A DNA stretch of 64,000 bases from Yarrowia lipolytica (taxonomy: Eukaryota > Ascomycota > Dipodascomycetes > Dipodascales), in the NCBI RefSeq assembly GCF_001761485.1, contig NC_090771.1, positions 1,240,001-1,304,000 on the forward strand. Direction: 5' to 3'. A program made the position numbers and the translations under genes. Under the pieces are notes generated by a model that ran no database searches, was not told where the DNA came from, and worked only from the letters and a program-made list of their open reading frames with translations. This document shows positions 4,524-38,164 of this stretch, in pieces; position 1 is the stretch's first letter, and each line of letters starts with the position of its first letter.

Positions 4524-5110
4524 TGAAATATCGTGGTGTGATAAAGTTGGCGAGTGCTGTGCATGATGATTTGTAAGGCTGGTGGAAGATGAGGGTGTCT
4601 CCTGGAAGGTGTTGGAGGGCGGCTACGGAGATTCTAAAGAGTGCAACATGTTTTAAAAGCAGATATTTAGGGGTATTTGGCCTTTAGATCAGAATAATGC
4701 ATACCATCGGAGCTATGGGCTTGGTACCACTCCTTTTTTTTTTTTTCTGCATATACATTCATTTAATTATTTTCTGCTACTTCTCTAAACATTTAGTTAG
4801 GGTTATTCACTCCATTACTTCAGCTAGAAGTACCGTACTTGTAGTTAGGCTTTCCTGATACGGAGGAGGAAGTGTGTGATTATGTCATCCTTTAGACATG
4901 CTAGCGAGTATCTGAAAACTTTGCTCTATTCACAGCAAAAATCTAACCAACTTCCTCACACAATATTAACCCGCCAGACTCCTACAACGCCGTCAATTCC
5001 AACCCCCCCCAAACATTCGCCACTCCCGCCAAACCCTATTTTCCACCACCTCACAAGCTCACGACACGAGACACTAATCCACACATCCACACATTTACAC
5101 ATCACACACA
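4524..5110. other. Intergenic between divergent CinA-like and RPN13 genes
   Basis: Divergent promoter region. It contains a likely 5'-truncated LINE tail at 4734-4807 (separate entry). The stretch just before RPN13 is rich in CA and CAC repeats, as is common in yeast 5' leaders. Confidence 0.6.
4734..4807 (-). mobile_element. Probable 5'-truncated LINE tail (Ylli-like)
   Basis: Read on the minus strand, the segment ends in AATGAATGTATATGCAG followed by 13 A's, and is flanked by the 6-bp direct repeat GGAGTG (plus strand CACTCC at 4728-4733 and 4808-4813), which looks like a target-site duplication. The same ending before a poly(A) occurs at 11547-11579 in the other orientation. A shared 3' end, a poly(A) tail and flanking repeats are the mark of short LINE insertions; Y. 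lipolytica carries the LINE Ylli, known for many 5'-truncated copies. Assignment to Ylli is inference. Confidence 0.45.
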
Positions 5111-6195
5111 ATGGCGACTACCACCGACATTCTTTTTTTCAAGGCCGGCCAGGCGGACTTTGACGAGGAAACTTCAATTGTGACCCCCCGACGGGGCCAG
5201 GGTCGGATTGTCGTGACACAGCCCAGTGACAGCGAGGAGTTAATATCGTTTGTGTGGGAGCCTCGAGGCACGGCCGGTGGCGAGAAGGTCGAGGTGTACC
5301 CATTTGCTGGAGACGCCACCTTCCAGCATGTCCCTGCATGCAAGACTGGCCGAGTGTTCAAGCTGCAGTTTGAGTCGTCTGGCGAGAAACTCTTCTACTG
5401 GGCCCAGAACCCCACCGACAGCGAAAACGTGTGGGAGCTGAGCAAGGAGGACAAGCGGGTTCTCAACACAATGCAGGCAATTCTGGAGGAGCAGGCTGAT
5501 GACGCTGAGGAGAACGCGGAAGACGTGGATATGCAGTGAGTAGTATAATATATGGATGAATGGTAGTACAGAAGGAGGACCGCGAGAGCAAGGAAAACGA
5601 TTGACATGGTTCCAACAATACAGATCAATTTTGGATGATTTTTGAGCAGTTTTGTGTCTCCAATACACGAGATGAGCAACAATCTATTCGCTCGTCCTGC
5701 AATGATTGGGTTCACCCGGACGTTTGGCCTTGGTTTCCATCATAAACCGAGTCGTTTCGTTTGTACTAACCCAGGGACGCCGAACCCAAATCTGCCCCTG
5801 CAGTCAACCCCACTGTGCCGGATCTGGCTTCTATGATGAGAAACATCCAGGTGCCCCAGAGCCAGTCCCAGAGCCACCAGGCCGTGCCGGTCATGAACAT
5901 TGGCTCTGTAGTGAGTCAGAACATGATGGCCGAGCACATCAGATCGCTGGACGACCAGGAAGTGGATCGCCTGTGCTTGTTGCTACCCGACGTGATTCCC
6001 AAGACCCGAGAGTCGCTCATCGGCGTGGTTCAGTCGCCCCAGTTTGCTCAGGGCATGAACACCTTTGATTCGGCTCTAAGAGAGGGCGCTGCTAGTATTA
6101 TTGCCAGAGAACTAGGCCAGGAGTATCTTGGAGAGGGCGTTGAGGGGTATCTGGAGAGTGCCAGAAAGGCTGCCAAGAAGGAGGAGGACAAATGA
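5111..6195 (+). CDS. RPN13: 26S proteasome ubiquitin receptor Rpn13 (ADRM1), two exons
   Basis: Exon 1 is 5111-5535, the intron 5536-5774 (239 bp, GTGAGT ... TACTAACCCAG), exon 2 5775-6195; total 281 residues. Exon 1 encodes the Pru domain (about residues 5-115): ILFFKAGQADFDEE, LISFVWEPRG, VYPFAGDATFQHV, RVFKLQFESS, KLFYWAQNP, the typical PH-like fold that binds ubiquitin and the Rpn2 tail. Exon 2 encodes a linker and a DEUBAD domain (about residues 185-275; LDDQEVDRLCLLLPDVI, QSPQFAQGMNTFDSAL, IARELGQEY), which in animals and fission yeast recruits the deubiquitinase Uch37/UCHL5. S. cerevisiae Rpn13 (156 residues) lacks this second domain, so this yeast keeps the fuller ancestral form. The intron falls between the two domains, and the junction CA|G restores the frame exactly. 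Confidence 0.93.
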
Positions 6196-8374
6196 ACCAG
6201 CGCGTAGCAGTGGTCTATTTGGTCTATCTGTCTAACCGAACTCTAGTCTTTCAGCAATGGTCTGTGTAAGGAGTCTACGTGGGGCTAGTGAAGGCAGCAA
6301 CTTGTGAAGGCCCATGTTCGTCAGGCCCAGTACAATCCATTGACGATATACTTGAATGAATGATATCAATGGCTTAAGGATGAGCACCAACGCCCCGAGC
6401 GTGAGCGACTCGGCTCTGTTGCGTACATTCGAGTATGTAGCAACGCGGACAACCGAAACGATAGATGACATCCCTGTCTTGTAGTCTCTGGCACGTTTCG
6501 AGGAGCTTTGCATTCCATTGGATAGTTTGTTATCAGTACGTTCGGTACGGTACAATATGTACTACATACCACACTTGGTTCAGACAAGGACTGTTTGTAT
6601 TGGTAACGAGCTATAGACAAACAATTAGATGCATCACCAGTTTAGTGCTTTAGCACGAGTAGGTACCTGTACTGTACTCGTGCTGTACTCGTACTGGAGA
6701 ATGTAGGTTCACGGATGTCGTTGATCCTAGCCGCTTACACGGTCAAGTCCGACACTTTTGTCCGATAATGTCTGCATCCGGCGTTGAGAGCTCATTAGCG
6801 TGTTCCAGAAGGAAAAGTCAACTGGTGTATTCTGTCAGAGAGCACACGTACTCGTAGAGATGTGTGTGCAATACAAGTCAAGTGGCTTACTGGTCAGTCT
6901 ACACTCTCCAAACAGTCGACATTGACCGACTAAACACAAGCATCCCCCACTCAGGTACGGTTCCCCTCACAAGTGCCCACTTTTATAGACCGTTGGAAGT
7001 ATCCGTGGAGCTGGGTCTTCTTGGCAGACAATGCATAGACGAGGTATGGCTGACAGGAGCGTAGAATGGCAAGACGAGCACGAGCACGAGTGACAAGGGA
7101 CGGGCAGGAGTGACAGTCGACAGCGACAGTGACAGCCGCTTGCGAGGGTAACAGCTGGGTCGTCGGAGGTCGTCATCCGGACAGCGCAGACATAGTCTGG
7201 ACCAGCCATGTCCTTGAACGGACCATCTAATCAAAGTCACCAAGCACCAATAAGAAGACGGTCAACCACCCTGTCGATAGTGATAGAGTAGTGACAAAGA
7301 GTGAACTAAATCTACAGTAACCATCTTTTTTACCTCACGTACTAACTCATACCCCACAAAGCTAATCTCCAACGTTTCCCCCCTCCACCGAGTGCATCTC
7401 TCTGTTCATACCCGGCCCTACAAACACAGAATTTGCTTCAAGTGGCTTCATGCTGGAACCTTGGTACCCCACACTTTGGCCTGTTTGGCACTAGTGTGAC
7501 AGTGCAGATCTGATATCATTTGACAGGTGACCTACCACGGTCTCTATTCTCGCCTTTCCATGGGTCTACCCCTCCATCAACGGCGCCATTCAGGAACAAG
7601 GGGTAACGGCTTACGCATGGGGAGGACAGGCTCATAGTTAGCCTACTTGTTTAGCAGCCCTTGTCCAGATAATACGGAGCAAAAAGGAGACGAGAAACGG
7701 CTCAGAACAAGCGGGTCGGGTAGACGAAAAGAAGCTCAATGGTCGACTCCAGACAAAGACTCGCATCTCGTACATTTACCTCCGCCATGCATTATTGCCC
7801 ACCTACTCCCTCCCGCAGTACCACCATGCACCATCCCCCACCCTGCCTCGACTCTTGACTGGATCCACATGGATTTACATGCAAAGTACGATACTGTGGT
7901 GTTATGAATGGCTTTCGGGCTCGATGCCACAAGGCCAATGGGGGTTTCGACATGTGTCAGACGGCGGAGATCCACACTAGCTACTTGTAGTTAACCCATG
8001 GAAAGTGCATCTTTAGCCGGAGACGCAAGACGGCACATTCATGCACAACTACACACTACAAACACACCGTACAAGTGCGGACCCGGGCTCGAGTACAAGA
8101 ACTCAGTCATGCAAACACCATCTGCCTTTATTCTCCGACAAGGCTCCGATCATAAATGCAATTTATGCATCCACATACACACGTACACCTGACGCCGCTG
8201 TGTAAACGCGTGTGATCGCGAGCGAGTAACGTCCACCAGTCTTCTGGGAGCCCCTTTCCTCCAAAAGGCCTGACATTGACGCTTTAAAAAAGTTGACATC
8301 TGAAACAAGCAGCCGTTGCCGGGGGTCTCATTGGTATAAGACAGGATACCGTTGATTCACCGGTCATGGTTCAC

Positions 8375-8406
8375 AGATCGGAAGAGCGGTTCAGCAGGCC
8401 CCCCCC
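8375..8406 (+). other. Illumina adapter-like sequence plus poly-C (probable assembly artefact)
   Basis: Positions 8375-8398 start AGATCGGAAGAGC and continue to ...CAGCAGG. As I recall the Illumina paired-end adapter, all 24 bases match it. A run of eight C's follows directly at 8399-8406. Natural origin is very unlikely. Confidence 0.85.
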
Positions 8407-8865
8407 GCAGAGATGCAACCTCCACCTAAGGAATATCAAGACAAAAGACTCAAGCACAAGTTGAAGCATGGCACAAGCTCCAGCCCACATGCCAAGGTTC
8501 ACAGGTGGATATATTGACTGGACCTACATTCTTTGTCTGCGTGACAGTTTCGAGAATGTGAAGATACCCAAAGTGCGGTGATTATGATGCTGGCAGGGCC
8601 TCCCAGGGTCTGTTTCAAATCGCTACAACCACATGGCTGGATTATCTACTCATTGCAGATCAGGAACACTTTCTGTTGGCTCCCGCGTGCAGATATTATC
8701 ATCTAACTAGTAGCTAAAGTCGCGCTAGCGCCTCTCTAGCACAGTCATGCACGTTTAGATCTGTTCGGGTCATGTCAGGTATACCTGTTTATTGGTATAT
8801 TGAGGGGATTACCAGTTGAACAAGCATGACGGCTGTGGCGGTAGATACACAAAGAGAACGACTTC

Positions 8866-8870
8866 TATAA
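8866..8870 (+). promoter_or_regulatory. TATA-like element of LIP8
   Basis: A TATAA 64 bp before the ATG at 8934, in a spacing normal for a regulated yeast gene. Confidence 0.45.
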
Positions 8871-8933
8871 GAGGGACTATTCTTGCCCTCTGGGTCATCA
8901 TCAAGCAGCAGCTTTCCACCCTTCTCTCTCCCA

Positions 8934-10049
8934 ATGGTATCCCTCTCTGCTCGAATCAAAGACTTTTTTTCGGTCCTCCTCCTCGGAGCTGCAACCATCA
9001 CTCCCTCCACACAGACCGCAGGCGTGTCTCAAGGGTTCTATGATTTTGCTCGGGACTTTGCCCATCTGTCCAACATTGCCTACTGTGTCAATGCTCCCAT
9101 CACTCCACTGAACCCGGACTTCACCTGTGGCAACTCGTGCAAGCACTTTCCGGAAATTGAGCTTGTGAAGACATTTGGAGGCAACTTCTTCAAGACCTCC
9201 ATTACGGGCTACCTGGCTGTCGATCATGTCAAGAAGGAGAAGTACGTTGTCTTCCGAGGAACCTTTTCGCTGGCAGACGCGATCACGGACATGCAGTTCC
9301 AGCTGTCTCCTTTCCTGGTCGATGTGCCTGCCCTGAACACTTTCTCAGCTAATGACACCACCGCAGAGGCCCAGACGCACTGTGAGGGCTGCAAAATTCA
9401 CGACGGCTTCTCCAAGGCCTTTACCGAGACCTGGGGTAACATTGGTGAGGATCTGCAGAAACACCTGGACGCTAACCCGGACTACCAGCTGTACGTGACT
9501 GGCCATTCTCTGGGAGCTGCTATGGCCCTTCTTGGAGCTACTTCCATCAAGCTCAAGGGCTACGATCCCATTCTCATCAACTACGGACAGCCCCGAGTCG
9601 GAAACAAGCCCTTCGCTGAGTTCATTAACAAGTTGTGGTTTGGAGAAGGCAACGGTCTGGAAATCACCCCCGAGAGAAAGCTGTACCGAATGACCCACTG
9701 GAACGACATCTTTGTTGGCCTGCCCAACTGGGAGGGATACACCCACTCTAACGGTGAAGTATACATCAACAACCGGTTCATCAACCCTCCTCTCAAGGAT
9801 GTCATCTCTTGTGCTGGAGGCGAAAACTCGAAGTGCTACCGATCCTCGTTCAGCCTGCTGTCCCAGATCAATCTGCTCCAAAACCACCTGGCTTACATTG
9901 ATTACATTGGATACTGCGCTCTGAACATTGGTCGACGAGAGCTTGCCGATCAGGAACATTACACTGGTCCTTATTACTATGGTCATCGATCTGAGGAGGA
10001 CTTTAAGAAGTTGGGCTTGGAGCTATCCACCCCACAAGTTGAGAACTGA
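8934..10049 (+). CDS. LIP8: Secreted triacylglycerol lipase, Lip8 type
   Basis: A 371-residue class 3 (alpha/beta hydrolase) lipase that hydrolyses acylglycerols outside the cell. I recognise it as the Y. lipolytica Lip7/Lip8 subgroup; 371 residues is the Lip8 length, while Lip7 is 366 by memory. A hydrophobic N-terminal segment (about residues 10-30, FFSVLLLGAATI) acts as signal or anchor. The catalytic Ser is S192 in GHSLGAA; the acid is probably D258 in HWNDIFVGLP, and the His probably H318 in QNHLAYI. The oxyanion region contains YVVFRGTFS. Cysteine pairs (CVNAP, CGNSCKHF, CEGCKIH, CAGG...KCYRS) suggest disulfides, and NDT near residue 140 is a glycosylation sequon. The ATG at 8934 was chosen because it begins the signal peptide; codons upstream in frame are serine-rich and lack family character. 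Confidence 0.87.
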   Translation: MVSLSARIKDFFSVLLLGAATITPSTQTAGVSQGFYDFARDFAHLSNIAYCVNAPITPLNPDFTCGNSCKHFPEIELVKTFGGNFFKTSITGYLAVDHVKKEKYVVFRGTFSLADAITDMQFQLSPFLVDVPALNTFSANDTTAEAQTHCEGCKIHDGFSKAFTETWGNIGEDLQKHLDANPDYQLYVTGHSLGAAMALLGATSIKLKGYDPILINYGQPRVGNKPFAEFINKLWFGEGNGLEITPERKLYRMTHWNDIFVGLPNWEGYTHSNGEVYINNRFINPPLKDVISCAGGENSKCYRSSFSLLSQINLLQNHLAYIDYIGYCALNIGRRELADQEHYTGPYYYGHRSEEDFKKLGLELSTPQVEN

Positions 10050-11900: not shown

Positions 11901-14900
11901 ATGTGAGTATCGGCGGGAATTTGGGTGTGCAGGGGCTGGTGGAGGAATTGGATCGGGATTTTGAGCGAAAACCGGACTGAAACGCGGTTGTGTGGAGGGG
12001 CTTGATGGGGCCTGGGTCGAAGTAGTAGGTCCTGTTGTGAAGTTCGGCATTGATTCCATTGCGACAAGTCAATCCCAAAACAGACTCACTACCCGCAGCA
12101 GTTCTGACCCCGGCTCTTCGGACTGGATAGGGCCTGTTTTCTGGTCTATTCATCTGTCTGGTTGGTGTGATCAGAACATGACCTTAGTAAAATCCAGACT
12201 GAAGCAGCCAGATACAAGTCGGCTCAAAAATTGGACCCCGTGGCCCTAGCAATCAATCTATCGGATAACCCACGCCGCACTGCGTGCTTGGCTCTCTACC
12301 GTACTAACCCAGGGACGACCCAACATCCTTTGTGGAATCAATACTGAATGAGGGAAGCAGGAAACTGCGGACCTTCTATTCAGACGGCCAGTCCTTGTCG
12401 GCCACGCTGGAGTCCATGAAACAGATGCGAACAGAGCTCCAGGACAGTGGCAACAAGCTGACCCCCGAGCAGGAGGAACGTCTCCAGCACTATGCAAAGC
12501 TCGTGGAGGAGACTGGCCAGACCCAGGTGGTAGCCAGTGGAGTTCAGGTGAGTAGAGAAGGAGTGGATGGATCTGCAACGAACTACAACGCAGTTGTCGT
12601 GTGTGGTTTGTCGGAGAGAGGATTCAAGGAGAAGGACCAACTGCAGGCTACCGAGATGTGGATCAAGGTGCACATGTCTCTCATCAGCAGGCTGTTGGGA
12701 TGGTAGTCTCGAACTACCTCCTATTACTCCACTATGCGAGGTATCACAGAGAACGATGGCACAACATTCACAGTACAGCAGTGTCTGCACTTCTACAGCA
12801 ATTGCAAGGGATCATCTTTCACTGTCATATGCCGTTATGGCATATTGGGACCTATCGTTCGTTTACATCGTCAATTGTGGTGGAGTGCTCCCATGCCTGA
12901 GTGCTGTTGTCAGTTATTGTGAAGTTCATTTCGATTACTATCACAATGAGCCATACTTGTTATTACGGTTTGAAGTGTCCAGCATACTGTTGCTTTACAA
13001 CTTGTCGTGATTGCTACAGCGTGTTGTCCACCCCATCTATCAATCGTTACCGAATACATCATACACTCGTCGGGTCAATTCCAAACCTTCGGCCTGTCTT
13101 TTCCATTCCGTTGCTAACACAGAAAAAAGCCATCAAATCAGAACACATGCAGTTCGCCACCGGACTCGGCGAGCATCTCCTCGTCGAATGCCGAAAACTG
13201 CAAGGCAAGCTAAACGAAAAGGAGGAGGCCCTTAACGCGCAGTCCGAAGAGCTGGACCGGGCGAAAACCCAGCAGAAAGCCATCGAGGCCAAACTCGCCA
13301 AGTTGTCTCAATCTGAGGACCGCTTCAAGGAGGAAAACTGGAACCTGGAGCTCAAGGTCACCGAGCTTAAGTCGCAGCTGTCCAACACGACCGAGCGGGT
13401 CAAGAAGCAGGCTGTGGAGTCCGGCCGAGTGGCCGACGCCCGAGCCACCGACACAGACACCATTGAGGAGCTGCAGTACCGGGAGCAGGAACTCAAAAGC
13501 GAACTGGAGCAGTCCAAGGCTCGGTTCGAGTCTGAGCGGTCCGACTGGGAACGTCAGAGCGAGTCTCTCCATGAAGATCTGCAACAGTACCAGCGACGGG
13601 TGGCTGAGTTTGAAGAGGCAGAGAAGACCCGAGGACGAGAATCCCATGTGCCCGTGCCCATGACTCCCTCCCCTGAAGATGAGCTTTCCAGCGACTCTGA
13701 TAGATCTCCTTCTGTGTCTCCTACTCGAGGAATGACTCGAAGCACTTCTCGAAACGCTGCTTTGGAGGCTGAAACCTTGCGAGTATCGTTCACTCATCTC
13801 ATGAAACAGCTGCAAACAGCCAAAAACAACATTTTCAAGGAGAAACACGTTTCTGCCGGCCTCAAGCGCGACCTTGCAGAGGCTCTGAAGAGCGCAGAGA
13901 AGGTCGAGAAGCTGACGAGCCACAAGCGGCCTGCCTTTGGCGCGGGCCGACGCCCCACGTCGCGAGTTCTGGAGGAGAACGACGAGTGGGAGGATCTGGA
14001 CGCAGGAATTACTTCTGAATACGTGTCAGCACTGGACACGGCCCAATCGACCGAAGACGACTACATGACGGGTGTGGAGACGCTGGACGGCGATAGTGGA
14101 GCCGAAGATACTGAGACGGAAGACGTTGTGCAGGATCTCAATCCCCGAATGCTTTCCATGGAGTCTGAGCTTGCTGGGGAGGAGTCTGATTCAGACTTTG
14201 ACGGTGACGATGCTGGAAACTCCACTTTCCTCAAAAAGACTCGATCTACTGCCTCTGTGGGCACAGTTGTGGGCGCGAACACAGCCCGACGAGCCCCTTC
14301 GTCTTCTCTGGCGCAAGAATTCATGTCTGAAGAAGACGTGGAGAAGTACGCGGAGATGTATGGATTGGTGGTGGTGGCTCAAGAGGAGTACGACAGTCTG
14401 GTTGAAAGGGCCGAGAAAGAGGAAACCGTTTCTGAGGACTCTATCGCTGCTGCTGCTGCCACATTTGGACTCGCTGTCATCTCTGCGGACAAACTCGCTG
14501 CTCTACAAGCTCCTCCTACTCTGGAGTCTCTCCAGCTGCAGGGTAAGGAGGTGCAGTGTACAGTGCTTCCCACGGACGAGTACGCCCATCTCACCGAGTG
14601 CGTCAATGCCCCTGGCCTCGAATACATCAAGGAGAAGGTGCCTAGCAGTCACGTCCTGCTGTCCAAGGATGAACATGATGCCTTGTTGATTCCTTCGGTG
14701 GAAGACATCGAGAAGAAGTTGCCTGATAGTCACGTATTGCTATCGAAGGATACCCATAAGGAATTGCTCAACCCTACCAAGGAATACGTTCAGACCAAGT
14801 TCCCCGATCACGTGTTGCTTACGAAGGATGTGCACGAGGAACTCTCGACCCCTTCTGTCGCTTCTCTCGAGAAGAAGATCCCCACGTCTCACGTTCTTTT

Positions 14901-17900
14901 GACAAAGGAAGCACATGATGAGCTGACCAATCCTAACGAGGAGCACGTGCGCGCCAAGTTCCCTGATCACGTACTTCTGTCCAAGGCTGACCACGATACC
15001 CTTACCAAGCCTGGTCTGGAGGAAGTCAAGAAACACGTTCCTAATACGCATGTTCTATTGACAAAGGAGGAACACGTCGCTTTGGAGCAGCCTTCTGTTG
15101 AATATGTGGCCAAGAAGCTCCCTAATCACGTGATCATTTCGAAGGAGGAGCACTCTGCTCTCGCTGAGCCCACCATTGAACAGGTTCAGAGCAAACTTAC
15201 AGGTCATGTGATCCTAACCAAGGAGGCCCACGCCGCTTTGGAGCAGCCCACTGTGGAGGATGTCGCTGAGAAGCTACCTGGTCACGTGATACTGTCTAAG
15301 GAGGAGCACCAAGAGTTGGTAGAACCGTCTGTGGAAGACGTTCAGAAGAAGCTCCCTGACCACGTAATTATCACCAAGGAAACTCATAGCAGTCTCGTGA
15401 CCCCTTCCCTCGACACAATCAAATCGCACGTTGGAAACTACAACTACCACGCGATTCCTGCTGCCGATTACGAATCGCTGGTTGCATCTGCAGAGTCTCC
15501 TTCTCTCGAGCACATTAAGGAGAAAGTGGTGAGCCACGGTCACGTGGTTGTCGACGAGAAGGAGTATTCCAGCCTCTGTCAGCCCACTATCGACGTGCTT
15601 AAATCACATGCTTCTTCCCATGATCATGTGATTGTCCCCCAGTCAGAGTACACCATTCTGACCCAGTCGGCCGAGTCGCCTACTTTGGATCTCATCAAGC
15701 AGCAGATTGGAAAACACGACCACGTGGTTCTGCACCAGGACGAGTTTGTCAAGCTCTCGTCCCCTGACCTTTCTCTGCTCAAGGAGAAGGTTGGATCCCA
15801 TGGACATGTGATTGTGGAGGAGGAGGAATTTGAGCGGTTGATGAAGCCGACTGTAGAGGACATGAGGGAGAAGAGCGTTGCTCTTGGTCATGTGTTAATC
15901 GCAAAGGATGAATTTGATCAATTGAGCAAGACTGCCACCGAGCCTTCCCTGTTACACATTAAGGGTAAGGCCAGTGCCCTTGGTCACGTGGTTGTGCCTG
16001 AGGACGAGTTTTCTAAGCTGACTAAGCCCTCTGTCGAGGACGTCAAGGCTCGCGCTGCGGAGCACAATCATGTGATCATCCCCAAGGAGGCGTTCTCCAA
16101 GCTCACCACTGCCGCCACCAGCCCGTCTCTCGAACATATTAAGGAGAAGGTTGGTGCTCACAGTCACGTTGTCATTTCCGAGGACGACCACGCTGCTCTT
16201 AAGGCTCCCACCCTCGATCAGCTGAGTCAGCACGCGGAAAGACACGATTCCAAGATTGTTCCCACCTCTGAGCTCGTTGAACTCACCCGAAAGAGCTCCA
16301 AACCGACCCCCGAGGAGCTATCGATGCGTGCTAAGACTCTCGGTCTCGTGGCTGTTCCGTTCACTGAGTTCGAGGCTCTTAAACGAGCTGCTGAGCCTCC
16401 TACTTACGAGCAGCTTGGTGACTACGCCAAGGAAAGTGGTCACGTGGTGGTCGACCAGAAGGAGTACGAGTCTCTGTCGTCTACTGTGTCATCCCCGTCG
16501 GTCGACTTCCTTACCAAGCAGGCTGCAGCTTCTGGCATGACTTTGGTTGCTCAGGACGAGTACGACAGCCTGTTGGAAACTGTGGGTGAGCCATCCCGTG
16601 ATTTTATCGCCCAGCACGCCAAGTCACATGATCTGGTTGTTCTGGACTCAAAGTCTCACGCTGAACTGGTACGAAAGAGCCAGAAACCATCGGAAGACGA
16701 ACTCCACTCGCATGCCAAGACGCTGGGCTTTTCGGCGATCGGAGCAGCAGCTCTGGCATCACTAACAGCGCTGGCGAACAACCCTAGTCGTGATCATGTG
16801 ACCTCAAAGGCCAAGGACCTCGGCTTGGTTGCTATTGATCGCGACGATCACGCTGAGCTTGTGCGACAGACCACCAAGCCCACAGCTGCTGAAATTGCTG
16901 CCCTGGCAGCTGGTGCTGGTCTCGTCACGGTGGATAAAAAGGAATGGAAGAACCTTGAAGACGCTGACCACGTGACTGAGCTTGCTTCTGGCCTAGGACT
17001 TGCAGCGGTACCGAAGCAGGAGTATAAGGAGTTGCTGAGGAAGAGCTCCAAGCCCACAGAAGAGGAGGTCTCAGGATTTGCACGTGCCAAGGGCCTGGAG
17101 GTGGTCAGCAAACAGGACAAGACGTTATTGGAGGATCCCCTCAAATTTGCCGAAGCCAGAGGTGGACATTTTGTGGTTGGTGATGAGTTTGAGAGGCTGA
17201 GTAAGCCCTCAGTTGAGGATATTGCGTCGCGTGCTAAGGAATTGGGTCACATCTTCGTGGCCCAGAGCGAGTTTGATAAGTTGGCCAAGCCATCGGTTGC
17301 GGACCTAGAAACTCACGCCAAATCACATGGTCATGTGATTATTCCAGTTGACACTCATAAGGCTTTGGTTGCTGCTGAGGTCGAATCCAAACGAGATTTG
17401 ACTGCAGATGAACTCCATAGCCACGCCAAGAAGCTAGATCTGGTGGCTATCACACATCTAGAGCACGAGCTTCTGGCTGCTCCTACGCTGGACTCTGTCA
17501 AGCAGCATGCCACTCGTCTTGGTCACGTTACTGTGCCCTCCGAGGAGTATCACAGCATGTCTGCTGAAGCCAACAAGCCTATCAACCGGGAGTTTGTTGA
17601 GTCTGTTGCTCCAGGCTTAGGTTTGGCTGTGTTGTCTAAGAAGGAGTTAACTGAGTTGAAGGAGCCCGATTTGGACACACTTTCGGCCCGTGCTAGAGCC
17701 CTGGATTCGGTTGTGTTGTCTAAAACTGACCTTGAGAAATTGGAGCACCCTTCCATTGATGTTCTCAAGGCCGAGGCATCTTCCAAGGGCTTTTCTGTGG
17801 TTGATTCAGCCGAATATGAGTCTCTTGTAACTCCTTCTGAGCAGCAGCTTCTTACTCAGGCTGCTAGACTTGGTTTGGTCACCGTCACTGAGAAGGAGTA

Positions 17901-20900
17901 TGAGCTGTTGAAGGCTCCAAACAAGGAACAACTGTCGAAGTTCGCTGAGAAGCACGGTCATGTGCTGGTGCCCGAGGACGAGCATAAGGAACTTGTTTCC
18001 CGGCCCACAGAGTTCACCCCCTCTCTGGACGACCTACACACCCACTCCAAGGCTGCCAACATGGTGCTCCTCACTCCTGACGAGCACGAAGCCCTCACTC
18101 GACCGGCAGAGAAAGACGTGCGACGTCATGCTGTGTCGCATGGTCTGGGAGTTCTCGCCTTGGCTGACCTTGCAGCTCTCAATTCCAAGGCCAACTCGCC
18201 TAGCAAAGAGCACGTGATTGAGCATGCCTCGAAACACGGCCTAGTAGCAACGGATCAGAAGGATTACAATGTCCTGGTCCGAAAGGCGTCGGAGCCATCT
18301 AAGGATGAAGTCATCGATGCTGCATCCAACCTCGGTCTGTCTGTGATTTCTTCTGAGGAGTTGGAGGCTCTGGAGAGAAAGGTGACACAGCCCTCAATTG
18401 CTGAAGTCACTGCCTCAGCTGCTGTCCTCTCTCTGGCGGTAATCCCCGAGTCCGAACTTGGAGAGCTCAGAAAGTCGGCCGAGGAGCCTTCTAGAGATAC
18501 GTTAGAAAAAACGGCGAAGAGCCTGGGTCTGGTTGTGGTCGAGAAGAAGACCCATAAGGATCTCGTGCGAAGGGGTGCTGAGCCTACGTTGGCTGAGCTC
18601 AAGGAGGGTGCCAATGGTCATGGTCATGTGATGATCCCGGAATCTGAGCACGTCAAGCTGTCAGCTCCACTAACAACCGAGGACATCGAGTCACGTGCTC
18701 GAAATCTCGGCCTGGTGGCTGTTGTCCAGTCCGATTATGATGAGCTCAAGCGGCAGGCCGAGTACCCCAGCGAGGCCGAGCTCGAGGCACGTGCCAAGAC
18801 TCTGGGAGTGACTCTGGTGCCCGACGATGATCTGGCGCAGCTCAGACAGGCACAATATGATGTCTATGCTAAGGCCCATCAGATGACATTGGTGAAGGAT
18901 GCGGAACTTGCTGAGTTGAAGGAGAATCAGTATGAGACTTATGCCAAGACAAACGGACTGGTCTTTGTTCCCCAGGTGGAGTTGAATGAGTTAAAGGACA
19001 ACCACCACGAGACTTACACTTCTAATAAGGGTCTTGTGATGGTTCCAGGAGAAGAGTTGTCTGAGCTCAAGAACAGTCACTACGAGACTTACGCCAAGAG
19101 CAAGGATCTCGTTATGGTGCCTTCCAAGGAACTCTTTTCGCTGCGAAACTTCGAGAACGTGCCATTTGACACTCTTGAGACTCATGCCAAGAGCCATGGT
19201 CACGTGATGGTTCCGTCTAAGACTCTGGATGATCTCAAGGCCAATTCTGTCGAGGAGTACACCAAAAAGAACGGGTTGTCTCTTGTCAATGCCGGCGAGC
19301 TTGCTGAGCTGCAATCACGTGCAGATAACCCGTCCCGTGAGCTTTTGCAGCAGCATGTTGGGAATGCCGGCCTTGTTGCGTTGTCAGAAGAAGAACATCA
19401 GAAGTTGTTGGCTCCTTCTATTGAGGAGGTGAGTAAGCATGCCGAGAAGCATGGCCATCATGTGGTTTCAGCTGACGAGCTTGCTACTCTCAAGTCATCA
19501 CAGATCAACAAGGACACTGTGGCTGCATTCGCTTCTGCCTCTGGCTTATCTCTCATTGCAGTTGGGGAACTCGAACAGCTGCGTCGAAAGGTGTATCACC
19601 CGACTGTGGCCGAAGTCCAAACCTCAGCCAAGAGTGTGGGTCTTGTTCCTCTGACCAAGGACGAGTACAACCAGATTTTATCTGAGAATGATGTGCTTTC
19701 GGATTCTGGCGATGTCGGAAACACCTCTGTCTCCTCCATCACGTCGTCAAAGCGCCTTTCCTCCGTACTCGAAAAGCGAAACCATTTCGAGGATCTTATC
19801 AAGGAAGAGAAGTCGCAAAAGCAGCGGGAGAAGATCATGGACTCGGTTAAGACGCTGGGCTTCATTCCTGTGTCTTCTGAGGAGTACAAGCGGCTCGTGG
19901 ACAACCAGAAGGAATATGCCCCTACCAAGGGCGATGTGTTCAAGTCCGCGAAGGAGTTTGGACTGGTGGCTATTCCTCAGGAAGAGTACAAGGGTATTCT
20001 GAAGAAGGCCGCTCCGTTGACCAAGGAGCGTGTTGTTGCTGATGCTGCTTCGTTGGGACTGGTTGTGTCTGAAGAGAGTAAGAAGGATGTTTCTGGCGCT
20101 AGACGAGGCAGCAGAACATCCGTCTCCCTCGAGAACGTGCCTCACGTGGCTACCAAGGAGGAGGTGGCAGCTCAGGCTGCCGAGCTTGGGCTGGAGGCCG
20201 TTCCTGTGACGTACATCACGCAACTCAAGCGCATTGCCGAAGCTCCTGAGGAAGAAGATGTGCGGGAGATGGCATCCAAATGTGGTCTTGTGGTGATGAG
20301 TGAGGAAGAGGTCAAGAGGGCCAATACAGTCCAAAAGGAGCTGTCTGCTGCCCAGCAGGCAGCCCTAGAGGCTCAGAACGAGTTGTCTGAGGCTAGACAC
20401 TCGTTGTCAGAGACTCAGGCCCTCGCCCAGAGCCACGAGAAATCCTTGGCTATGGCTCGATCGCCTGATCTCCAACAGGTAGCTGTTCTGGCAGCTGCCC
20501 ACGGCTGTGTCACCGTCAACAAGAGCGAGTTTGAGCAAATGTCGGCGTTTGTGACAGCCAAGCAAGAGGAGGACGCCAAGCCGAGGGAAGTGCCCAAGGA
20601 GAAGCACTCTCTTGAGTCTCTCGGCGCCATTGCAGCTGGTCTGGGACTGGCTGTTGTGCCGTTTGCTCATAAGGATAGAGTGAAGGAGGTTCCTGTGGAG
20701 AAGGAGGTGGTCCGAGAGGTGCCTGTGACCAAGGAGGTTGAGGTCATCAAGGAGGTGCCTGTGGAGGTTGTCCGGGAAGTGGAAGTGGTTAAGGAGGTGC
20801 CTGTTGAAGTCATCAGAGAAGTCGAGGTCATTCGAGAAGTCGAAGTTCCCGTTGAAGTCATCAAGGAGGTGATCAAGGAGGTCCCCGTTGAAGTCATCAA

Positions 20901-22599
20901 GGAGGTGGTCAAGGAGGTCCCCGTGGAAGTGGTGCGAGAAGTCGAAGTGTCTAGAGACCTCCCTACTACGTTCCAGGAAGCTACTCCTTCTGTCGACTTC
21001 CATACTCAGGCCAAACAACTCGGATTCACGCCTGTGCCGCACGCTGAGTATCATTCCTTGGCCAATCCTTCAGACGAGGAGATCCGCGAACGGGCCAAGG
21101 CGCGCGGTTTTGTTGCTGTTCCGTTCGGACAGTACTCGGAGCTGCAGATCAAGGCTCATCGGCAGTCTGTGCATGACGAGGCGGGTGAATCACGTGATTT
21201 GCAGCGTGGCGAGACAGTGTCGCCCAACTCTGCACGTGACTCGAGTATTCCCCTCACCGCAGCCGAAATCGAGCACAAGGCTTCCACTCTCGGCCTGGTC
21301 ACTCTCTCCGTTGATAAGTACAAGGAGCTGGAGCGTCTGGCTGCCCAGCGACCCGAGCCTGTTGTCGTGAAACCCGATCTGTCCAAACAGGACATTGAGA
21401 GCCATGCCAAGACGCACGGACTGGTTACGCTACCCTCAGCGACCTACACCAAGCTCGTGGCTGGCCAGAACCCCTCAGCCAACCAAGTGAGGGATTTGGC
21501 TGCGAGATACGGATTGGTTGTGCTGACGTCCAATGAGATGGCTCGTCTGCAGCAGCAGCGAGAGACTCAACCCGTTGCTCAGAGCTATCAGTCGGTTGCT
21601 TCTCACGCTACTTCTCCTCGACCGGTGCCCGAGAGCTCGTCTACTCGATCGTCTGTCTACAGCTCTCTCCCCATCGCTGCTGCAAAGGAGGCCATTGAGA
21701 TGCATTCTCCTCGAGGCTCCATGTCTCGAGACTCGTCAGTGGCGTCCCATTTGTCGCGGTACTCCGATGCGCAGAGCCATATACAGACCGCCCAAACGGC
21801 GCATGTAGTTGTACCTGCTCAGACCGCTCAACCTACAGCTCCTGGGCTGATGGGACCCCCCGCAATGACTTCCAGTTTCACTCGGCAGTCGGTACCCGCA
21901 TCCAGCTCGTTCCGAAGAGCTGTCTACGAGTCTCCTCAAAGCCAACACGCCACCCAGCAGCCACAGACTCCCCAGAGAGGCATGACGGAGTCCCCGTCGT
22001 CTCTGCTCATGTCGAACGCTACCATCGCGTCCAACGCGTCGTTCAACGACAAGAACATGATTGCGGTGGTCACCCAGACCATGATTGGCGAGTACCTGTT
22101 CAAGTATACGCGGCGGTTTGGCTCTGTGTCGGGTATCTCTGAAAACAGACACCAGCGCTACTTCTGGGTCCATCCGTACACCCTGACGTTGTACTGGTCT
22201 GTGGAGAACCCGTCAGCCGACGTCAAGGCTGGAAAGGTCAAGTCTGTGCCCATCACGTCGGTCGTGTCCGAGGAAGACGATAACCCCCTGCCTCCCGGGC
22301 TGTTCCACAAGAGCCTATTGATTGGAACTCCTGACAGAGTCATCAAGGTCACGTGCCCCACCCGTCAGCGACATAACATCTGGTACTCTTCGCTGAGATA
22401 CCTGTTGACCCGGTCGCCTGACTTTCTGCTGGACGACGGAGAGGCCAATTCTGCGTCGGGGGATGAGTTGACTGCAGACGCACGGCTGGACATGGAAAGA
22501 CACAAGACGGTCACGGCGGCATACCCCAGAAGGGATTCGTCGTTGAGAGCCATACCCCAGGTGAAGACACTGAGACGATCTTCGTTCAGGAGGAATTAG
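11901..22599 (+). CDS. NUM1: Num1/ApsA-type cortical anchor protein, three exons, about 3237 residues
   Basis: Exons: AT at 11901-11902; 12313-12547; 13123-22599. Introns are 410 bp (GTGAGT ... TACTAACCCAG) and 575 bp (GTGAGT ... GCTAACACAG). The first intron splits the start codon (AT|G), giving MDDPTSFVESILNEG. Num1 anchors dynein, mitochondria and ER at the cell cortex so that nuclei and mitochondria are placed correctly. The N-terminal 250 residues are coiled coil, the part that binds membrane and dynein in relatives. A Ser/acidic linker follows. About residues 480-2890 hold roughly 73 degenerate 25-34-residue units of the form P-S-x-E-x(5)-A-x(3)-G-H-V-x-V-P-x(2)-E-[FY]-x(2)-L, interrupted near 2600-2690 by a tract of KEVPVEV-type repeats. 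A PH domain (about 3056-3172; YLFKYTRRFG, RYFWVHPYTLTLYWS, IWYSSLRYLL) ends the protein and should bind PI(4,5)P2. Longer than S. cerevisiae Num1 (2748). The exact start rests on splice signals only. Confidence 0.87.
14323..21560 (+). repeat. Coding repeat array in NUM1 (about 73 units)
   Basis: Counted by eye in the translation: about 73 units of 25-34 residues. Units near 14600-15400 are short (26-27 residues, HVLLSK.. type) and alike; later ones are longer and more diverged. Near 18850-19130 four units lose the P-S-x-E start and begin YETYAK. Not a CRISPR array: units are degenerate, in frame and protein-coding. Confidence 0.85.
20681..20950 (+). repeat. KEVPVEV-type short repeat tract inside NUM1
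   Basis: About 90 residues made only of K, E, V, P, I, R and few others, in units such as KEVPVEVIKEV and REVEV. The DNA repeats as AAGGAGGTCCCCGTTGAAGT-like words. It is likely an extended, highly charged spacer. Confidence 0.8.
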
Positions 22600-36475: not shown

Positions 36476-38164
36476 TTAGGCAATCCAAAACCAGACCTTT
36501 TCGAGCCAGTTTCTGGGGAGTCGCTCGGGGAACATGTCCTCGACCTCCTGGGCCTCCTTGAGACCGGTGGTGATATCAATCTCATCAATGGGTCGAGCAA
36601 AGGGAGTCTTGAAACCAGCTCGCTTGTAGATGTATCGATGTCCCACGTAGATGGCAGCAAACAGAGGCAGGGTGATGTAGGCGGCAACAAAGTCAGAGCC
36701 GGTGAAAGAGCCTCCCACAAATACGGTGAAGCCGTTAGTGATACACATGAGCGCGACGAGGCACAGTACGAACCAGGTTGACCAGGGCTGGAAGGGCGTC
36801 TTGAAGGGCAGCACGTCAAAGGTGCCATGGTTGAACCAGATGGCCTTTCGGAATCGGATCATGGCGGTCAGCACACACAGCCATGCGAGGAAACCCGAGA
36901 TGGTGGAGATGTTAGACAGCCAGGTGAAGGCCTCCGACGAGCCAGACGAAACGTTGAGGAAAGCCAGACAGCCGACGGCAGCAGTGGCAGCCACACACAG
37001 GTAGGGGACACCGTTGGGGGTGCATCGCTTGAAGACGGCCGGAGCCTCTCCGTGGCACGCCAGAGAGTACATGGTTCTTGAGCCAGCATAGAGGAAGGAG
37101 TTTCCGGCAGACCAGGCCGAAGTCAGAATCACGGCGTTGATGATATGGTTGAGCACGGGGATTCCGGCGTTCTGGATACCAATGACGAAGGGAGAGGCTG
37201 CGGCGTCTTCTCCTCCAGAGTTGACGGCTCCCAGAAGTCGGGGGTCGTTTCCAGACACAATAACACCAATGACCAGAGATCCCAGCACGTAGAAGGCAAT
37301 GAGTCGGTAGGCGAATCGCTTGGTGGCCTTGGGAATGTTTCGACGAGGAGCCTCGGTTTCTCCGGCAGAGATTGTGACGAGCTCAGGAGACAGAATGAAG
37401 GAGAATCCGGATCGGATCAGCGCGTTCCAGAACCCGCAGAATCGACCAGAATCGCCCTTGACAATGTACTCCTTGAAGGCGTCGTGTTTCCAGTATCGGA
37501 AGCCGAGTCGGTCGTGGGTGGGAGCTCCGCCAAAGAAGATGACGATACCAACAATGATGAGACCGATGATGCCGAGAATCTTGATACTGGCAAACCAGAA
37601 CTCACATTCTCCGAAGACGGAGACGGCGATGATGTTAAGAATGACAATCGACACGAGGAAAATGGTGATCCACACCGCCACGGGCACCTTGTCTGTCCAG
37701 TACTCAACCACAATGGAGGCTGCGGTGACTTCTGAGGCCACCAGAATGGCATAAGCATACCAGTAGTTCCAGCCACAGGCAAACGCCAGAGAGTCGTCGA
37801 CAAACCGGTTGACGTACATGGGGGGAGCGGCGCCGGCCAGAGGCAGATAGGTGGTCATTTCTCCGAGAGCGTTCATGACAACGTAGATGACAAAGGACAT
37901 GATAATGTAGGCGATGAAGATGGAGGCAGGGCCCGAGTTACTGAGCATGGCTCCGGAACCAACAAACAGACCGGTTCCAATACATCCTCCGAGGGCAATT
38001 AGCTGCACGTGACGCGACTTGAGCGCTCGTTTGGTGGTGTGGCCTCCCTCCTTTTGGGCCTCGTGATCCTCAAACGACGCGCTCTGAGTGGAGCTGAGCG
38101 ACTCGTTTGGCAGATCGACGATTGAGCCGCTGTATTCAGTTTTTTCAATGGTGGACTTGTCCAT
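36476..38164 (-). CDS. Amino acid permease (YAT/APC family, 12 membrane spans)
   Basis: A 562-residue plasma-membrane amino acid/proton symporter. After an acidic hydrophilic N-terminus (about 55 residues, SPS-like Lys and Ser residues for ubiquitin control) the first span carries the family hallmark HVQLIALGGCIGTGLFVGSG. Other conserved parts are GEMTTYLPLAG, FACGWNYWYAYAI, SPELVTISAGETEAPRRNIPKA (substrate-site helix 6), and SAWSAGNSFLYAGSRTMYSLA. The C-tail ends EKVWFWIA, the trafficking motif seen in Gap1-type carriers. Substrate is not readable. Because PUT1 and PUT2 are 17 kb away a proline carrier is possible, but that is a weak link. Start ATG at 38164 (MDKSTIEKTE); a TATA box lies just upstream. 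Confidence 0.9.
   Translation of the reverse strand: MDKSTIEKTEYSGSIVDLPNESLSSTQSASFEDHEAQKEGGHTTKRALKSRHVQLIALGGCIGTGLFVGSGAMLSNSGPASIFIAYIIMSFVIYVVMNALGEMTTYLPLAGAAPPMYVNRFVDDSLAFACGWNYWYAYAILVASEVTAASIVVEYWTDKVPVAVWITIFLVSIVILNIIAVSVFGECEFWFASIKILGIIGLIIVGIVIFFGGAPTHDRLGFRYWKHDAFKEYIVKGDSGRFCGFWNALIRSGFSFILSPELVTISAGETEAPRRNIPKATKRFAYRLIAFYVLGSLVIGVIVSGNDPRLLGAVNSGGEDAAASPFVIGIQNAGIPVLNHIINAVILTSAWSAGNSFLYAGSRTMYSLACHGEAPAVFKRCTPNGVPYLCVAATAAVGCLAFLNVSSGSSEAFTWLSNISTISGFLAWLCVLTAMIRFRKAIWFNHGTFDVLPFKTPFQPWSTWFVLCLVALMCITNGFTVFVGGSFTGSDFVAAYITLPLFAAIYVGHRYIYKRAGFKTPFARPIDEIDITTGLKEAQEVEDMFPERLPRNWLEKVWFWIA

Follow-up and report, generated by a model that had tools for sequence, protein, structure and literature searches.

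An Illumina paired-end adapter sequence inside a Yarrowia lipolytica contig upstream of a class 3 lipase gene

The closest described counterparts of the sequence considered here are published listings of the Illumina paired-end adapter and copies of its first bases in deposited assemblies. The adapter passage of PMC4331701 gives a 61-base Illumina adapter, which opens with the 24 bases found at our locus and then reads AATGCCGAGACCG. The corresponding passages of PMC3784568 and PMC10038132 print the first 33 and the first 37 bases of the same adapter, respectively, as adapter sequence. In all, 23 papers contain the 24-mer. The assignment of the 24 bases to the Illumina paired-end adapter in the earlier note is in agreement with the three listings, as far as these passages go.

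Other assemblies were scanned for exact copies of the 24-mer. The prokaryote set represents 84,980 species by a single genome apiece, with contigs shorter than 3,000 bases excluded, and the viral set comprises 2.9 million contigs. The scan finds 10 places in the prokaryote genomes and 12 in the viral contigs, 22 control copies in all. Judged by the contig names they stem from 12 assemblies or samples, therefore they are not 22 independent events; 17 of them were positioned within 11 whole records. All but one (21/22) lie at most 44 bases from a contig end and point outward from the genomic sequence. The remaining copy (L005) is internal and is followed by N. The sequence continues as the published adapter in 20 of the 22 copies, over up to nine bases available; one copy has no further base and one has N. 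In both collections the 24-mer appears only as left-over adapter, once at a contig-internal join, and none of the 22 copies looks native.

The adapter stands at both ends of two of the viral contigs in opposite orientation, namely at 26-49 and 36598-36621 of the 36,644 bases of IMGVR_UViG_2548876821_000002 (L014/L019) and at 5-28 and 20012-20035 of the 20,041 bases of IMGVR_UViG_2548876827_000001 (L012/L015). A test for terminal inverted repeats could be led astray by such copies at contig ends. The bases just before the adapter are also shared among several control copies. The motif atgtagc precedes it in L006, L008, and L009, though L010, from the same assembly, lacks it; attgctc is shared by L004 and L005, gactgtg by L011 and L021, and ctccg by L012, L014, L015, L017, and L019. 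The pairs L013/L016 and L020/L022 have no common bases there. We read these 5 to 7 bases, common to different contigs, as in-line barcodes that stayed in the assemblies.

At our locus the same 24 bases, AGATCGGAAGAGCGGTTCAGCAGG, occupy positions 8375-8398 on the plus strand of the window, by which we mean the whole analysed stretch of 64,000 nucleotides of the Y. lipolytica contig NC_090771.1. Read directly, they are identical to the published adapter at 24 of 24 positions counted from adapter base 1, so that the exact match runs from the ligation end of the adapter and exceeds 20 bases. The matched oligo is, as we assume, the older, pre-TruSeq paired-end adapter, and the first A of the window copy presumably derives from A-tailing. 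The few bases directly before 8375 might likewise be an in-line barcode, by analogy with the control copies. The 24 bases are followed by eight C's at 8399-8406 (plus strand), also read directly, where the adapter would read AATGCCGAG. The coordinates given in the earlier note for the 24 bases and the C run are correct.

The weight of the match lies in its full length. From the base composition, 4.7e-10 exact 24-mer matches are expected by chance on both strands of the window, and 2.5e-7 when 14 adapters and 40 offsets are roughly allowed for, which bears out the earlier view that a chance match of this length is negligible. It is the exact 24 bases that count because the 13-base Illumina prefix alone is uninformative: with up to two mismatches it gives one match in the window against 1.66 expected, and by itself it is therefore no evidence. 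Reversed-adapter controls in the window likewise reach 13 bases. A comparison of the window with 14 adapter and linker oligos returns the 24-base match at 8375-8398 as the only one longer than 13 bases; the shared 14-base Illumina prefix is found at the 8375 site itself and not at a second place. It is very hard to believe, then, that native yeast DNA happens to resemble the adapter over these 24 bases. Such a reading would fit a join marked neither by N nor by a flank duplication, but it has to face an expectation of about 5e-10 exact matches and the lack of any native-looking copy in both collections, where all 22 copies lie at contig ends or beside N.

Hence, we conclude that 8375-8398 is almost certainly left-over sequencing adapter, an assembly artefact at an untrusted join and not biology, as the earlier note had proposed. 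Along with the exact identity, the arrangement on the left side is that of the control copies, with genomic sequence first and adapter second. Contigs of the Milkweed yellows phytoplasma (NZ_AKIL01) and of Piscinibacter sakaiensis (NZ_BBYR01000069) carry the 24-mer as well, again with the genomic part first and the adapter after it. However, their copies stand at contig ends and run into AATGCCGAG, whereas the copy in the window is internal and follows the adapter no further than base 24. The internal copy of Natrialba taiwanensis (NZ_AOIL01000042, L005) shares with the window the 24 bases, the genomic sequence before them, and the join inside a contig, but N follows its adapter in place of the eight C's without N in Yarrowia. 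It lies at 183533-183556 within a public contig of 301,708 bases.

Several features of the locus count against the artefact. Continuation into the next adapter bases and a position at a contig end or beside N are usual, though not defining, for left-over adapter, and the window copy has neither: it is internal, in a window of 50.4% GC with 0 N, and eight C's come after the 24 bases, an arrangement seen in 0 of the 22 controls. Moreover, no flank overlap beyond chance marks the join. Within 300 bases on each side the longest common substring is 7 bases, a length reached in 996 of 1000 random joins; there is therefore no sign of a duplicated edge. The composition around the join is unremarkable, with GC from 0.46 to 0.545 in 200-base windows over 7400-9399. 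A repeat finder reported a 19-base, 79% repeat between 8358-8376 and 8486-8504, which includes two adapter bases and which we treated as chance. The region had no match in a plasmid collection (1131-base query, near mode) or in a phage collection (181-base query, distant mode), and 24-base patterns from the left and the right flank had no exact match among the viral contigs. None of these collections would be expected to contain a yeast locus, so the misses are uninformative on the artefact.

The right-hand side of the join leaves two ways of drawing the extent of the artefact. After the eight C's the window reads GCAGAGATGCAACC on the plus strand, and in the right flank the C run stands before GCAGAGATGC. 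The eight C's may be fill, or the right-hand piece may start with them as genomic sequence. We lean neither towards nor away from the variant in which the foreign part is limited to the 24 bases and the C tract is true genomic sequence at which the assembly broke. A second run of eight C's at 5003-5010 shows that C tracts of such length occur in this genome, and since 0 of the 22 control copies have C's after the adapter, the C's are no usual tail of adapter reads. Both observations speak for genomic C's, but low-quality fill would explain the run equally well. The choice alters the extent of the artefact, not its kind.

A real insertion would also account for adapter bases at this place. The sequenced strain would then carry a synthetic adapter piece upstream of the lipase gene, through capture or insertion of laboratory DNA or through strain construction, and the continuity of the sequence without N would be natural. 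We nevertheless regard such an insertion as extremely improbable. An adapter cut short without its next bases, with no visible marker or vector nearby, would be unlike the expected remnant of a construct, and none of the 14 adapter oligos has a second match in the window.

The origin that we propose for the artefact is the following. With an insert shorter than the read, sequencing would have run on through its end into the paired-end adapter ligated to it, and the adapter-bearing read would have been trimmed incompletely. This read could then have been added to the end of a contig or used to fill a gap in a scaffold. Finally, the left piece, ended by adapter, may have been joined without N's to sequence that starts with the C run or shortly behind it. 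A left piece that ends in adapter read-through, together with a right piece starting at or near the C tract, is the most economical reading of the locus. The left-over adapter is as such an ordinary assembly error, and published assemblies of this species with Illumina pairs and gap closing are counted in favour of the artefact. For the H222 assembly, Illumina pairs were trimmed with Trimmomatic and Cutadapt and then put through SOAPdenovo2 and GapCloser, and the assembly passage for A-101 names the same tools (SOAPdenovo2, GapCloser, Trimmomatic, Cutadapt). A left-over adapter is less expected in these two because adapter trimming is reported for both. For PO1f the corresponding passage describes Illumina pairs with Velvet, and with A5 followed by closing of gaps with IMAGE; for W29/CLIB89 it describes Illumina combined with PacBio.

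The window also contains other genes. An Rpn13-like proteasome gene with two exons lies at 5111-6195 (plus strand), about 3 kb upstream of the lipase reading frame. Its first exon (5111-5535, plus strand) encodes the Pru domain and its second (5775-6195, plus strand) the UCH-binding C-terminal domain. The putative intron between them (5536-5774, plus strand) starts with GTGAGT and ends with TACTAACCCAG; the frame is kept as read by eye. The branch site lies only a short way from the acceptor, the usual arrangement in Yarrowia introns, which supports the species named in the earlier note but is no proof of it. Further downstream, a reading frame of 3217 aa at 12946-22599 (plus strand) has a C-terminal Mcp5-type PH domain and is a long, cortical-anchor-like protein.

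The gene next to the join is an intact reading frame of 371 aa at 8934-10049 (plus strand), which encodes a class 3 lipase (Pfam Lipase_3); its ATG lies 536 bases downstream of the last adapter base. The best solved relatives of the product are 3o0d (Triacylglycerol lipase) and 4jei (Lipase 2), both of which we take to be Y. lipolytica Lip2. The name LIP8, which the earlier note gave to the gene, is carried in part: a class 3 lipase akin to these two structures fits LIP8, but the name itself is unproven, and structural relatives of the predicted protein would not tell it from LIP7. In the relevant passage of PMC5980982 LIP8, along with LIP7, is described as a relative of LIP2. Passages of three papers on the gene, supplements aside, contain neither a LIP8 sequence nor LIP8 primers.

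Last but not least, the relevance of the finding is one of data quality only: a join that cannot be trusted lies 536-559 bases ahead of the lipase ATG. Adapter is able to persist in a gap-free stretch and thus to escape checks of contig ends. Anyone who uses this assembly to clone the promoter, to search for motifs, or to measure distances should mask 8375-8406.
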